Shown here: positions 3,144-32,599 of the stretch, piece after piece
How positions within the stretch are numbered: position 1 is the first letter of the stretch
Layout of the letters: each line of letters starts with the position of its first letter
Assembly: GCA_035461765.1 (NCBI GenBank)
Contig: DATHUY010000136.1
Coordinates: forward strand, 1-40,633
Direction: 5' to 3'
DNA from: Longimicrobiales bacterium
Lineage (GTDB): Bacteria > Gemmatimonadota > Gemmatimonadetes > Longimicrobiales > RSA9
Length of the DNA stretch: 40,633 nt
Notes under the pieces: model-generated
Told to the model about the DNA's origin: nothing
The model's database searches: none
The model's input: only the letters and a program-made list of their open reading frames with translations
Program-made: the position numbers and the translations under genes

Positions 3144-6083
3144 TCAGTTGTTCGTTATCGGACCGGTCACGAGGTCGAGCCCGAGGTTGCGGCCCTTCTC
3201 CGTAGCCGGAACGCCCTGCTCGAGCCAAACCGGCGGCGGTGCATCCAGCAGATAGTGATCGAAGAACTGCTGCATGCGGATCGTCCAGTCCTTCCGGTTC
3301 ACTTCCTTCCGCAGGCCGTGCGCCTCACCGTTGTAATTCAGCATCCAGACGGGCTTGCCCAGGCGGCGCAACGCGACGAAATACTCGATGCCCTGCTCCC
3401 ACGGCACCGCTCCATCCTCGTCGTTGTGCATCATGAGCAGCGGCGTGTTCACCTTGTCGGCCCAGAAGATGGGTGAGTTCTCGATATAGCGCATCGGCGT
3501 GTCCCAGAGCGTGCCGCCCAGGCGGCTCTGCGTCTTCTCATACTGGAACATGCGGCTCATGCCCGACTCCCAGCGAATGCCGCCGTAGGCGCTCACCATG
3601 TTCGCGACCGGCGCACCTGCCTCTGCGGCGCGGAAAATGTCGGTCTTGGTGACCAGGTACGCGATCTGGTAACCACCCCACGAGTGGCCCTGCACGCCGA
3701 CGCGCTGCTCATCGACGAAGCCGCGCTCGAGCAGGCTGAGCACGCCGGGGACGACCGCCTTGAACGCGCTCTCACCCGGGTAGCCAATGCGGTACGGGAT
3801 GTCGGGCGTGAAGACGAGATATCCGCGGCTGACATAGAAGCTGATGTTGATGCTCGAGCTGCCGGGCGCGGGGATGACGTGGCCGTGCAGATTGTCGGAC
3901 AGCCTCTCGTAGAAGTAGACCATCATCGGATACTTCTGCGACGGATCGAACCCGTCCGGCTTGTAGAGTACGCCCTGGAGCGTCTCACCATCAGCCGAGC
4001 GCCAGTCCACCAGCTCAGCGGTGCCCCACCGGTATTCAGACTGCTGCGGATTCGCCTCGCTCAACCGGCGTGCGTCCGCGAACGTGAGGTCGGAGACCCA
4101 GAGGTCGGGGAACTCGCGGAAGTCGCTGCGCGTGAAGATCACGGTGTTCGCGTCGCGCGCCTTGCGCGGATTCCCGAACCGCTTGTCGGCCATCATGATG
4201 CGCGACGGCGTCTGCGTGCCGTTCACGCGATCGCGATAGAAGCCGTCCTGCTTGGTCCACAGGTTGAATGCCGAGAGCAGCATCTCGCTCGACGGATCGA
4301 TCGCACGCTCCTCGGTATCCAGCCGGACGTAGCGCAGGCGCAGATTGTCACGCCGGCCCACACCCTCGGTAACGTTGCGCGGCTCCGCGCGTCCGGTCGG
4401 GTCCACCGCCCAGATGTCGTGGCTGTCATAGATGAGGAATCGCGAATCGTCCGTCGTCCAGCCCGCGCTGCCGTACGCGCGAGGGAGCGACGGTGAGTCG
4501 TGCTCCTCATTGTGGACTGCGTGCGGAATGCGCTCCGAGATGTTCGCGATGCTGCGCGAGCGGACATCCATCGCGAACCACGCCTGCTGCTCGCCATCGA
4601 ACCATGTGAGGTAGCGGCCTTCCGGTGAGAGCGACGCGTTGCCGCGGTTGTACTCGAGGATCTGTGTCGCAGCGCCGGTACGGACATCGACGAGATAGAC
4701 GTCGCTGCCGCTTTCGCCCCACGATATCTCCTGGCGGTAGGGGAGGTTCGACGTGCCCACTGCGAGATCACCATCGCCGCGCAGTGCCACACTCACGCTG
4801 GGCAGGTCCGGCCGCTCCAGCTGAACGATGCGCCCGTCACGCAGGTGGATGACAGCCTCGTATGTACGCCTGCGCTCCTGCGCCGCCTGGCGCAGCTGCA
4901 TCGGCTGGATCAGCGGATCCTTCCAGTTCCAGATGTCGACCACGACCTTTTCCTCGCCGTCCTCCTCCGCTTCGGGGTCGGGCTCCGGACGATCGGCGGT
5001 CGGGAAATAGATGCGGCGTCCGTCAGGCGAGAAGCGGACGGTGCCGTTGTCGGGGATCCAGGCGCCCTCCGGAATGCCTGCGGAAGACGGCGCTGCGATC
5101 ACACGAGCGGACGCAGCGCGGCCATCCCAGTGGTAGAGCTTCCATGAAGGCTCGCCCGCAGTGGAATCGACCTGCTCGAACTCATCGACATTCGAGATGA
5201 ACGCCACCTGCCGGCCGGCATCGTCGATCGCGACCTGCTTGTACTCACCCTTGCCGGAAAGCAATGTGGTGATGTTCCCCGTGCGCGTGTCCGTGACATA
5301 CACGCCATCGGCGTCACCGGTCTTGTTCGAGCGCGTGAAGACGAGGCGGCTACCGTCGTCCGAGAACGCGTACGTGACCACATCCTCGAACCGTCGCTCC
5401 TCACCCGTTGCAGGGTTCAGCAGGACTACGGGGTAACCTTCCTCGCGCTTGCGCTCCGGCGCCTTCTTCGTCGTATCGCCCGCGGTCTCGCCGGCGGGTG
5501 GCTCCGGCATGCGGCCCGGTTCGGGGCGTCGCGGCTCGACGGCGCCGGGCGCCACCGTGCTGTCCGCCGCGGCCGAGTCGGGCTTCTCGTCGGGCGCGCG
5601 ACCCAGCTGATACGCGAGCCAGTCGCCCGCGTCGTCGGGCATGCGGAAGCCGCGGATGCGCGCCACGCGGGTGACCGCGCCGGTCCGGAGATCGAGAATG
5701 CCGAGCGTGTCGGCGGGCATGCGCGCTGGCGGCGTCTTCTTCTTGCGTGCCTCCTCGAGCACCGCCTTGGTCGGCTTTATCGTGAACGCGACGAAGCGGC
5801 TGCCGGCATCGAACGCCGGCGCCTCCGCACGTTCGATCACGTGACGCGTGGTGCCCGCCACATCGACGACGGTCAGGGTGGGATCGTTCGCTTCGGACGT
5901 GATCGCGAACAGGGCCCAGCGGCCATCATTCGACAGCGCCTGGGCGCCGATTCGATTCCAGATGTCGTACGCATCGTGGTCCAGCGCGCGCAGCGCTGCA
6001 GGCTCCATCTGCGCGGCCGCCGGAACGGTGGCGCCGAGGATGAAGGCGATCGTCATCGGGAGGGAGGTCCGGACTCGAAGCAT
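3144..6083 (-). CDS. Secreted S9 family prolyl oligopeptidase
   Basis: Encodes 979 residues. A signal peptide (MLRVRTSLPMTIAFILGA, cleavage near PAAAQ) sends it to the periplasm or outside. Residues of about 30-700 form a WD40/TolB-like beta-propeller with repeated DDG and SPDGR motifs. It contains a Pro/Glu-rich, low-complexity insert near residues 170-215. The C-terminal alpha/beta-hydrolase carries the nucleophile in GHSWGG (about residue 801), an Asp in HNDEDGAVPW (about 889) and a His in EAHGLR (about 921), the expected order for S9. At 979 residues it is longer than typical DPP IV or acylaminoacyl peptidases because of the propeller inserts. It probably trims peptides for nutrition. A weak SD (AGGA) lies 8 bases before the ATG. 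Confidence 0.93.
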   Translation of the reverse strand: MLRVRTSLPMTIAFILGATVPAAAQMEPAALRALDHDAYDIWNRIGAQALSNDGRWALFAITSEANDPTLTVVDVAGTTRHVIERAEAPAFDAGSRFVAFTIKPTKAVLEEARKKKTPPARMPADTLGILDLRTGAVTRVARIRGFRMPDDAGDWLAYQLGRAPDEKPDSAAADSTVAPGAVEPRRPEPGRMPEPPAGETAGDTTKKAPERKREEGYPVVLLNPATGEERRFEDVVTYAFSDDGSRLVFTRSNKTGDADGVYVTDTRTGNITTLLSGKGEYKQVAIDDAGRQVAFISNVDEFEQVDSTAGEPSWKLYHWDGRAASARVIAAPSSAGIPEGAWIPDNGTVRFSPDGRRIYFPTADRPEPDPEAEEDGEEKVVVDIWNWKDPLIQPMQLRQAAQERRRTYEAVIHLRDGRIVQLERPDLPSVSVALRGDGDLAVGTSNLPYRQEISWGESGSDVYLVDVRTGAATQILEYNRGNASLSPEGRYLTWFDGEQQAWFAMDVRSRSIANISERIPHAVHNEEHDSPSLPRAYGSAGWTTDDSRFLIYDSHDIWAVDPTGRAEPRNVTEGVGRRDNLRLRYVRLDTEERAIDPSSEMLLSAFNLWTKQDGFYRDRVNGTQTPSRIMMADKRFGNPRKARDANTVIFTRSDFREFPDLWVSDLTFADARRLSEANPQQSEYRWGTAELVDWRSADGETLQGVLYKPDGFDPSQKYPMMVYFYERLSDNLHGHVIPAPGSSSINISFYVSRGYLVFTPDIPYRIGYPGESAFKAVVPGVLSLLERGFVDEQRVGVQGHSWGGYQIAYLVTKTDIFRAAEAGAPVANMVSAYGGIRWESGMSRMFQYEKTQSRLGGTLWDTPMRYIENSPIFWADKVNTPLLMMHNDEDGAVPWEQGIEYFVALRRLGKPVWMLNYNGEAHGLRKEVNRKDWTIRMQQFFDHYLLDAPPPVWLEQGVPATEKGRNLGLDLVTGPITNN

Positions 6084-6163: not shown

Positions 6164-6352
6164 TCGGACGCGGAACCCGTTCTGCAGATTGGCCGCGAGC
6201 GCCATGGCCGTGTCACCACCAGGCCCGCCCCGGAGGGCAGGCCAGGCGGCAGCACCGCGCCGCAGCAGGGCGCCACGCCAGCTCGGCCGTGGGGCCGTCC
6301 GGGCGTCTCGATGTCCGAATGAGCCAATCTGCAGAACGGGTTCCGCGTCCGA
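6164..6352. repeat. Dispersed inverted-repeat element, copy 1 (189 bp)
   Basis: Perfect 30-bp inverted arms (6164-6193 and 6323-6352) begin TCGGACGCGGAACCC and end with the reverse complement. The interior is about 130 bp and GC-rich. The outer 15 bases match the second copy at 31461 exactly, and the block ATGGCCG sits at the same offset (40 bases from the left end) in both. No target-site duplication and no transposase are visible. It lies between divergent genes, so it is not simply a terminator. REP/BIME-like or MITE-like are both possible. Confidence 0.85.
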
Positions 6353-6397: not shown

Positions 6398-6453
6398 CAG
6401 TCTGCCCGCCGTCTCCACCCCACCTTGCAGACGTCAGCAGGCACCCGGGTCGG

Positions 6454-6542
6454 CTGTCGGCCACCACAGCACAGTCGGACACCACAGCACGGTCGGCACG
6501 ACAGCACCGGCGGCCATCACAGCACGGTCGGACACCACAGGA
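6454..6542 (+). repeat. Five 18-bp tandem repeats before the ferritin-like gene
   Basis: Units at 6454, 6472, 6490 (17 bp), 6507 and 6525 follow the pattern C-G-GTCGG-ACACCACAGCA with a few changes. The last unit ends in CACAGGA, which forms part of the Shine-Dalgarno sequence of the next gene. They would lie in the 5' leader or promoter of that gene. Confidence 0.75.
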
Positions 6543-6549
6543 GGGCGGC

Positions 6550-7089
6550 ATGCAGATCGGTACCATGGAGCTCAAGCGGCTGAACTTCTACCGCGCCTGC
6601 GAGCTGCACGGCGGCCTGATGCTCGGGCAGCTGGTGCGCCGCGTCCGGGATCCGGAACTCATTGTCATGCTGACGCGTCATTCGGCCGACGAGTACGCGC
6701 ACGCTCGACTGTGGACCGACACGATCATCGAGCTGGGCGGTGAGCCGCACCCGGTCCGCGCCACGTACCAGAGCCGGCTGGGCAGGATCGTCGGTGCACC
6801 GGGCAGCGTATTCCAGGTTCTCGCGCTCTCACAGGTGTTCGAGCGTCGCGTGTTCCGTCACTTCACGCAGCACGCGCGTCTGCCCGGCACGCACCCGGCC
6901 GTGCGCGCGGTGCTCGAGCGGATGATCGATGAGGAGAAGGTCCATCTGTCGTGGATGGCCGACTGGCTGCAGGTGGAGTCGGCGCGTCGACGCGTGAATG
7001 TCAACGACCTGCTGAGCCGGTTCGCACTGGCCGATGCGCGCGTGTACGGCGAGCTCCTGTACGAGTACCGCTTCCACGCGATTGCCTGA
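6550..7089 (+). CDS. Ferritin-like di-iron protein
   Basis: Encodes 179 residues of an all-helical protein. Carboxylates are placed as in a four-helix di-iron bundle: E18 in helix 1, E48-x-x-H51 (DEYAH) in helix 2, E98 in helix 3 and E129-x-x-H132 (EEKVH) in helix 4. It has no signal peptide, so it is cytoplasmic. It could store iron, detoxify peroxide or act as an oxidase; the sequence does not decide. The start at 6550 has an SD (GGAGG) 5 bases upstream; ATG at 6565 is less well placed. The leader is unusually rich in repeats, so the gene may be strongly regulated. It faces the following lipoprotein gene tail to tail. Confidence 0.82.
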   Translation: MQIGTMELKRLNFYRACELHGGLMLGQLVRRVRDPELIVMLTRHSADEYAHARLWTDTIIELGGEPHPVRATYQSRLGRIVGAPGSVFQVLALSQVFERRVFRHFTQHARLPGTHPAVRAVLERMIDEEKVHLSWMADWLQVESARRRVNVNDLLSRFALADARVYGELLYEYRFHAIA

Positions 7090-30614: not shown

Positions 30615-30682
30615 TCTCGATCACCGTCGTTTGCGTGCACCTTGGTGAATCAGTCACCGCACTGCTTCATCAGGGAGCGAAC

Positions 30683-31456
30683 ATGGCGAACCCCGAAACG
30701 GTGAGATCGCGCAAGGGACCAGGCCTGCTGGAGCGCTGCCGGCGCTACCGTGGACTCCTCGTGCTGGTCGTATGGCAGGTCCCGGTGCAACCCGTGATAC
30801 GACCGAACGGCAGTCTCGGACTCATGATCGGCACCGGCACCGACGAGCATGCCGAGCTGTCCTGTGACGGCGACCTGCTTCGCGCCGACCGGGTGCCGTA
30901 CAAGGTGGCAGCCGTGGAAGGGGACTACAGCCTGAACGAAATCGTTCGCGTGGACGCAGCCGGCGGCTTCATGACGTCCGACTGGGAGTCGCACCAGGGC
31001 GCTTTCGGGACCGTGCGGCTGCGGGGCGACTGGAAATCATTCGGGGTCGGGGCGGGACTCGCCCTCGCTCCGGGTTTCGAGGAATACGAGGGAGAGTCGT
31101 CCCGGGCAGCCTGGCCATCGCTCTACCTGCGCGCCGGATCAGCCGAAACCGTGCACCTGAGGCTGGAAACGTTCCCCCCGAACGCATTCTCGCCGCAGCA
31201 GGTCGCTCGCATCGGCATCGGCTACAACGCAGTGCGACGCGATCTCGCTTCCGGCTTCATTGGCCTGGCCGGTGTCGGGAGCCACGAAGGAGGCACCGGC
31301 GTGAGCGCGGATCTCTCTGTGCCGGTTGCCGACCGGTTCGCACTGCGATTCTCCGCACACTATGCCGACGGAGAGAGGCACGCGATCACCGGGTTTGCCG
31401 CGGGCGGTCGCGTCCTGCTCGGCAGCGCGCCGACACTGGCAGCGGCCGCCAGGTAG
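30683..31456 (+). CDS. Predicted beta-rich envelope protein
   Basis: Encodes 257 residues. After a basic, hydrophobic N-terminus (RCRRYRGLLVLVVWQVPVQ) come alternating strands with aromatic residues (GAFGTVRLRGDWKSFGVGAG, GFIGLAGVGSHEGG, FALRFSAHYADGERHAITGF), like a small outer-membrane beta-barrel or beta-sandwich. No family recognised and the signal sequence is atypical. The ATG at 30683 has GGGAG 5 bases upstream; the longer frame starts with GTG at 30635 close to the CTACGTA sites and is less likely. Its TAG stop abuts the second inverted-repeat element. Confidence 0.68.
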   Translation: MANPETVRSRKGPGLLERCRRYRGLLVLVVWQVPVQPVIRPNGSLGLMIGTGTDEHAELSCDGDLLRADRVPYKVAAVEGDYSLNEIVRVDAAGGFMTSDWESHQGAFGTVRLRGDWKSFGVGAGLALAPGFEEYEGESSRAAWPSLYLRAGSAETVHLRLETFPPNAFSPQQVARIGIGYNAVRRDLASGFIGLAGVGSHEGGTGVSADLSVPVADRFALRFSAHYADGERHAITGFAAGGRVLLGSAPTLAAAAR

Positions 31457-31460
31457 AGTT

Positions 31461-31593
31461 TCGGACGCGGAACCCACTCTGCAGAACGGCTCAGGGCCAC
31501 ATGGCCGGGGCGCGTGCGGACATGCCGCCCCGCGCTTCCGGGGACGCGGGCCTGCCCCGATGAGCCGTCCTGCAGAGTGGTTTCCGCGTCCGA
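31461..31593. repeat. Dispersed inverted-repeat element, copy 2 (133 bp)
   Basis: Arms 31461-31492 and 31562-31593 (32 bp, 2 mismatches) match copy 1 (6164-6352) at both ends: the outer 15 bases of the left arm are identical and the right-hand 33 bases agree at 27. Variable bases change in both arms together, which keeps the pairing. The interior is about 57 bp shorter than in copy 1. The element fills almost the whole space between two convergent stop codons and may act as a bidirectional 3' hairpin. Confidence 0.85.
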
Positions 31594-31594
31594 T

Positions 31595-32599
31595 CTACCA
31601 GAGCGCGATGACCAGCGCCGCCACGGCCAGCAGCAGCGCCGCACCGGCGGCCGCGGCGGTGAGGGTACCGGCAATGCGCATCTGTTCGAGCATCTGTCGC
31701 GTTTCCGTGAGCGCGGCCTCGTACGGGCGTTCCGGCGCCTCGATCACGGACTGCTTCATCACTGCCTTTGCGTGGACCACATCCTCCATGGCACCGATGA
31801 AATGCCGCTGATGAATGCGCTTCGCGTCGTCCGGGCCCTGCTCGGCGGCCGCGGCGAGCGCTGCCTTCAACACCGCATTGCGGATGTCACCGCCACTCAC
31901 CGCATATCGCTCAGCCAGTGCGCGAAAATCGACGTCGTCGGCGAGCGGCGTGCGCTGATGCAGCTGGACTCGCCAGATCTGCTCACGCTCCTCGACCGCA
32001 GGCAGCTCGAACAGCACGTGTGTGCGGATGCGTCTTTCAAAGGCGGGATCGAAGTTCGCGGCCAGATTCGTGGCAAAGATCACCACGCCATCGAAACGCT
32101 CCAGCTCCTGGAGCAGGACGTTGATCGTGGTGTTCGACTCGCGCTGCATGCCGTGTGAGACGTCCGTCGAGCGGCGCGCCGCGATGGCATCCGCCTCGTC
32201 GAAGAACAGGACCGCATCCTCTTCCTGCGCCATGCGGAAGATCGCAGCCACGTTCTTGGGTGTCTCACCGAACCACATCGACTCCAGCTCCGCGTAGCGT
32301 ACGAGCAGAAGGCGCTTGTTCAACTGATGCGCTATGGCTTCCGCGCAGATCGTCTTCCCCGTACCGGACGGCCCGGCAAAGTTGAACGCGAGCGCGGTCC
32401 CGGTCGGATGCCTCTCGCCCAGTCCCCATTCGTGAAATATGAGGTTGTAGCTGTGCACCTGCGTGAGCGCTTCCTGGAGCATGCGCAGCGTGTTCGGCGG
32501 CAGGATCACATCCCGGAATGTGCGACGTGCAACGACCGACTCGATGACGCCCTTGCGGCCGGTCAGGCCGGGGAACAGCCTCGCAAATGGATTCGACAT
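31595..32599 (-). CDS. AAA ATPase with a C-terminal membrane anchor
   Basis: Encodes 334 residues. A single AAA module has Walker A GPSGTGKT (76-83), Walker B LFFDEAD (131-137), sensor-1 Asn178 in FATNLAANFD and an Arg finger in FERRIR (189-192). The lid region (VSGGDIRNAVLKAAL) follows. The last 25 residues (TAAAAGAALLLAVAALVIALW) are a single hydrophobic helix at the extreme C-terminus, like a tail anchor. The ATPase would face the cytoplasm and could extract or remodel membrane proteins, in the manner of Msp1, which however is anchored at its N-terminus. Residues 1-60 hold no recognised domain. No SD is seen. Confidence 0.88.
   Translation of the reverse strand: MSNPFARLFPGLTGRKGVIESVVARRTFRDVILPPNTLRMLQEALTQVHSYNLIFHEWGLGERHPTGTALAFNFAGPSGTGKTICAEAIAHQLNKRLLLVRYAELESMWFGETPKNVAAIFRMAQEEDAVLFFDEADAIAARRSTDVSHGMQRESNTTINVLLQELERFDGVVIFATNLAANFDPAFERRIRTHVLFELPAVEEREQIWRVQLHQRTPLADDVDFRALAERYAVSGGDIRNAVLKAALAAAAEQGPDDAKRIHQRHFIGAMEDVVHAKAVMKQSVIEAPERPYEAALTETRQMLEQMRIAGTLTAAAAGAALLLAVAALVIALW

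Follow-up and report, generated by a model that had tools for sequence, protein, structure and literature searches.

We consider it very likely that the two inverted-repeat elements in the window, i.e. the whole stretch of 40,633 nucleotides analysed here, are non-autonomous elements of one family of the TIRtron/REPIN type, and that a RAYT working on single-stranded DNA probably spreads them in trans. Directly seen are about 50 copies, two fixed length classes, arms that pair, a RAYT gene located between the same arms, and co-occurrence in the genus; recognition, cutting and copying of the elements are putatively ascribed to the product of this gene, RAYT-A. The arrangement is a known one (TIRtron/TIRYT), while the family itself, referred to here as family A, is new, and the paired changes in its arms are unusually clear.

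The assembly to which the window belongs (G000; Gemmatimonadota, 4.68 Mb, 171 contigs) was compared with G001, the sole genome of the same genus in the comparison, which is very probably Gemmatimonadetes SH-MAG3. Relatives were surveyed more widely, 154 genomes of the order for RAYTs and 61 relatives for element or arm matches. Family A denotes the arm family of both window elements, and family B the arm family around a second gene, RAYT-B. Copy counts in G000 come from pattern and sequence searches of the genome together with retrieved stretches, which are L-numbered and carry their own local coordinates.

Structure and context of the elements in the window

Copy 1 (6164-6352, unstranded, 189 bp) belongs to the long class of family A and copy 2 (31461-31593, unstranded, 133 bp) to the short class. 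The left arm of copy 1 (6164-6193, + strand) and its right arm (6323-6352, - strand) are 30 nt long and 100% complementary, as the sequence-only reading had stated; those of copy 2 (31461-31493, +, and 31561-31593, -; 33 bp) are imperfect, with 94% complementarity and two mismatches. That reading was likewise right that the left arms of both copies have their outer 15 bases in common (TCGGACGCGGAACCC), that the arms differ between the copies in a paired manner (GT to AC on one side, AC to GT on the other), and that an ATGGCCG block lies at an equal offset (+40) in both. A more apt description of this block is that of a CATG box, which starts exactly 40 nt from either end and is found at about half of the element ends; the box is at 6203-6206 (+) in copy 1 and at 31500-31503 (+) in copy 2, each 40 nt from the left end, and the ATGGCCG block begins one base after its start. 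The inverted repeats are not a product of chance, since the single-strand folds score z = -9.5 (copy 1) and -8.2 (copy 2) against shuffles, with no shuffle equally good. No target-site duplication is visible flanking either copy, in agreement with the earlier observation.

The two copies have different surroundings. Copy 1 has divergent neighbours, with a gene for an S9 peptidase at 3144-6083 (-) and one for a ferritin-like/COQ7-like protein at 6550-7089 (+), whereas copy 2 lies between convergent ones, an ORF (30635-31456, +) and an AAA-ATPase gene (31595-32599, -). Two other repeat tracts were seen in the window: a CACCACAGCACGGTCGG-like unit is imperfectly repeated at 6452-6545, upstream of the gene for the ferritin-like protein, and three direct repeats with 36-bp spacing (2416-2531) lie close to where the ORF at 58-2403 ends, and past it.

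Family A across the genome and in the congener

The search for further copies that had been suggested returned about 50 in G000, at least 48 of them as distinct two-armed copies in retrieved stretches, and at least 21 examined in G001, where the same two length classes occur; most copies of the family are 132-133 bp or 187-192 bp long. At the level of single arms, a sequence search of the G000 assembly gave 115 matches, and the arm pattern was found at 156 sites vs 34 for the reversed control pattern. The spacers have diverged (mean identity of 48% after orientation vs 38% in the wrong orientation, among 16 copies of 133 bp), yet their length is nearly constant. The CATG box lies exactly 40 nt from the end at 55 of 96 element ends in G000 and 17 of 42 in G001, and in the mid-spacer control the whole 11-bp window contains a CATG in only 4-11% of cases.

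The elements in G001 carry different arm subtypes (GCGGACCTGG or GCGGACGCGG), which are again matched between both arms. L165 in G000 and L113 in G001 hold an element at an orthologous site and with an orthologous spacer, and several arm columns differ between the two on both sides. Elements also occupy orthologous sites in both species at L024/L158 and probably at L178/L153, and the existence of several such sites indicates that the family is old and its movement slow. Few of the comparable element flanks are common to G000 and G001. Pointing to mobility, in one comparison (L167 in G000 vs L153 in G001) the flanking genes align across the junction and G001 is without the element, the junction not being base-exact; comparisons of the two genomes yielded no clean, base-exact empty site. 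Among the 61 relatives, only G000 and G001 have arm matches in number, the other element matches being single and weak. One unusual arrangement was also noted in G000 (L178 1522-1733, contig C61), in which three left arms stand in tandem at 40-bp steps, followed by one right arm.

Paired changes in the arms

In an alignment of 21 copies of 133 bp drawn from both species, 98.7% of cells pair in the arm-to-arm structure, and 8 of the 29 pairs change on both sides. Double-change cells number 37, compared with 10.0 in shuffles, and 0 of 500 shuffles reach the observed value, with kinship among copies left in. When the partner is slid by 1-3 columns, pairing drops to 29-42%; when whole right arms are shuffled among copies, z is 11.3 in G000 and 9.0 in G001, with relatedness not removed. 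Both the slid controls and the recurrence of the result in a second species, which has other subtypes, speak against relatedness among copies as the whole cause of the pairing. Within each arm the palindrome is not maintained (pair 17-26 is Watson-Crick in 36%), and what is conserved is therefore the pairing between the arms; a conserved hairpin within each arm was rejected, since most copies lack a Watson-Crick match at pairs 17-26 and 16-27.

The proposed check for paired substitutions across copies thus found arm changes that keep pairing far beyond chance. As for the stronger claim, that of selection on a hairpin and not just common descent, selection on pairing is likely, but conversion of one arm by the other through template switching would equally leave the arms matched. 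The possibility that the elements inserted into loops of inverted repeats already in place was considered and rejected: the flank pairs match no better than mismatched ones (mean 4.59 vs 4.55 for family A, 4.73 vs 4.78 for family B).

Two RAYT genes and a second arm family

It had been claimed that there is no transposase. This is true of the vicinity of the copies, a Pfam scan of the six predicted proteins near the window copies having found none, but not of the genome, which has a RAYT-type gene between the same arms. A search of G000 with PF01797 identified two RAYT-type genes, both on contig C107, which is not the contig of the window. The first, RAYT-A (327 aa; ORF at L039 2048-3031), has family A arms on both sides, at L039 2004-2027 and 3064-3087; the REP-type tyrosine transposase that was to be looked for is therefore present in the genome, away from the window copies. 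RAYT-A matches Y1_Tnp above the Pfam cut-off, its nearest solved structure is TnpA_REP 4ER8 (3.3e-5), and the HxH motif and the tyrosines are invariant in all four RAYT sequences of the two species. HTH_23-type matches near residues 270-325 of the RAYTs, all below the Pfam cut-off, may point to a C-terminal helix-turn-helix, a trait of TIRYT subclass 2.1 (PMC6006769), and the NCBIfam model REP_Tyr_transpos gives 65 and 63 bits, i.e. below its curated cut-off of 80.

RAYT-B (312 aa) lies between family B arms (GGACCYGGCTTCACTTT) at L045 1743-2812 on the same contig. In G000 the family B arm pattern matches 31 times and its control 0 times, and the two-armed copies found there number 15, with lengths of 132-183 bp; the arms are unrelated to those of family A, and the CATG box is mostly 38-39 nt from the end. 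Both RAYT genes are at orthologous positions in G000 and G001, with flanking genes that align at 83-86%, and RAYT-A of G001 is 73% identical to that of G000. As RAYT-A is single-copy and at the same place in both species, it has been inherited vertically. Neither RAYT was found in the other 152 genomes of the order at E <= 1e-20 (154 genomes searched). Another family of the class has more distant RAYTs (about 28-34%), several of which are located between inverted repeats with GGGGTCAGAGTC.

Proposed mechanism and alternatives

The suggestion of a REP/MITE-like family is borne out by elements that are dispersed, show paired substitutions and share their genome with a REP-type tyrosine transposase. 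Under the model that we favour, each copy would fold into a long hairpin when single-stranded, e.g. on the lagging-strand template; RAYT-A would recognise the folded arms, and perhaps also the CATG box that lies 40 nt in from each end, and would cut and join without target duplication, whereby the arm-spacer-arm unit could be copied or moved in trans. As spacer length and arm pairing are kept with the sequence nearly free, mutations in one arm would persist mainly when matched in the other.

The matched arms might have arisen from mutation itself, by template switching between the inverted arms or by conversion by other copies, a reading that we regard as possible without favouring it and that can coexist with the RAYT model. 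It would account for the blocks that change together in both arms at L165/L113 (GCG/CCT around columns 7-8, along with several columns further in) and for an outer base that is G in all examined G001 copies; however, the arm match stops at the element ends, where the outermost base is without arm-to-arm link in G000 (z = -1.7) and columns 32-34 match no more than expected, and many subtypes of either species show paired changes. It is rather unlikely that the host retains the elements as structured RNA signals, such as transcript ends or mRNA stabilisers, with a link to RAYTs that is only historical. In favour of this reading, long stable hairpins lie between genes, orthologous copies persist in the two species with a paired arm change at L165/L113, and the infB-ylxP-rbfA operon has arms at the same places in both; yet the whole window has no Rfam match at gathering thresholds, the fold of the spacer alone is only weakly better than those of its shuffles (z on average about -1.2 to -1.3), the window copies sit in divergent and convergent gene contexts, and the arms flank a transposase gene, the second RAYT having its own second family. 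An ordinary MITE of a DDE-type IS would have the size (133-190 bp), the 30-bp terminal inverted repeats and the many copies, but the lack of target-site duplications at the window copies and the Y1/HUH rather than DDE nature of the gene between the arms make this origin highly improbable.

Comparison with known systems

TIRtrons, with their transposases termed TIRYTs, are described by Di Nocera et al. (2013, PMC3733652) as RAYT-like transposases between long terminal inverted repeats with dispersed copies, and TIRYTs largely correspond to subclass 2.1 of PMC6006769. The likeness is close: a RAYT-type Y1/HUH gene lies between long inverted repeats (L039), the copies are dispersed and mostly dimeric (48 two-armed ones in family A), the repeats are unrelated to GTAG REPs, with no GTAG seen by eye at the listed arm ends, and families A and B accompany RAYT-A and RAYT-B in one genome, as in S. 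maltophilia, for which PMC3733652 reports two genes with two separate repeat families. In contrast, neither the family A nor the family B arms contain the GGGGWSAS repeat motif, which according to PMC6006769 occurs in the majority of TIRYT subclass 2.1 members but not in all; other RAYTs of the phylum have GGGGTCAGAGTC-like repeats at their sides, and the GGGGTCAGAGTC inverted repeats around the distant RAYTs of the class match the TIRYT description. The consulted text on TIRtrons describes neither a pair of fixed length classes nor a CATG box at 40 nt.

Family A resembles REPINs in that the unit is an inverted pair with a spacer whose length and hairpin are kept and whose sequence is not, in its compensatory changes, which Bertels and Rainey (2011, PMC3116915) describe as common in REPINs, and in a genomic RAYT that is single-copy and of vertical descent, as noted for REPIN systems in PMC8049555. 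It differs in having 30-nt inverted repeats as arms instead of GTAG-tagged short palindromes, and in that the intra-arm palindrome is not conserved. As no GTAG tetranucleotide or short palindrome marks each unit, we regard family A as working like a REPIN and do not file it as a GTAG REP. The BIME/REP elements of E. coli with TnpA_REP (PMC8266576) are similar in their HUH Y1 enzyme, related to 4ER8, and in their inverted pairs between genes; family A lacks the GTAG tag, is longer and does not form tandem mosaics.

That the elements are not a described family, as the sequence-only reading held, is therefore true of the sequence, but the arrangement had already been described as the TIRtron (PMC3733652). 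The TIRtron and REPIN literature available to us contains neither family A nor its two length classes and CATG box. Gemmatimonad(ota) are unmentioned in the main text of PMC3733652 and PMC6006769, and our literature search, with most subscription journals outside its reach, found no paper on RAYT-type elements in Gemmatimonadetes. With a second species at hand, family A as a TIRtron-type family makes arm coevolution, spacer-length conservation and vertical RAYT descent readable from sequence. RAYT action in trans on single-stranded hairpins has been proposed for REPINs (PMC3116915) and TIRtrons (PMC3733652), and the paired arm changes make this hypothesis about RAYT substrates directly testable. 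The less ordinary points are the paired arm change at one orthologous locus and the host genes bracketed by the same arms.

Host genes between family A arms

In G000, host genes lie between family A arms at four places; one of them, ylxP, is bracketed in both species. That arms of the RAYT type can also surround host genes, and perhaps mobilise or mark them, is a doubtful proposition, for which comparisons with relatives gave mixed answers; should the bracketing stem from mobilisation, RAYT systems could transport genes as well as short hairpins. A consistent left/right polarity of the gene-bracketing arms in G000 was dropped as a reading, because in G001 the arm subtype common to RAYT-A and ylxP is on opposite gene sides. 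The D-aminoacylase-like gene (L026 1488-3654, contig C101) is missing at this site in six relatives (G004-G007, G010 and G011); cargo transposition is not claimed here, as G001 has the gene without detectable arms and the junction alignments are not clean. At the site of the copA-type heavy-metal ATPase (L032 1495-4255, contig C90), G001 has the same gene order and no detectable arms. The ylxP/DUF503-like gene lies within the order infB-ylxP-rbfA-truB (L037 1491-1968, contig C41 of G000; L057 1500-1978, contig C374 of G001), and the infB-ylxP order looks native in relatives. The remaining place holds a RidA-like gene together with an outer-membrane-type gene (L163 1178-2642, contig C39).
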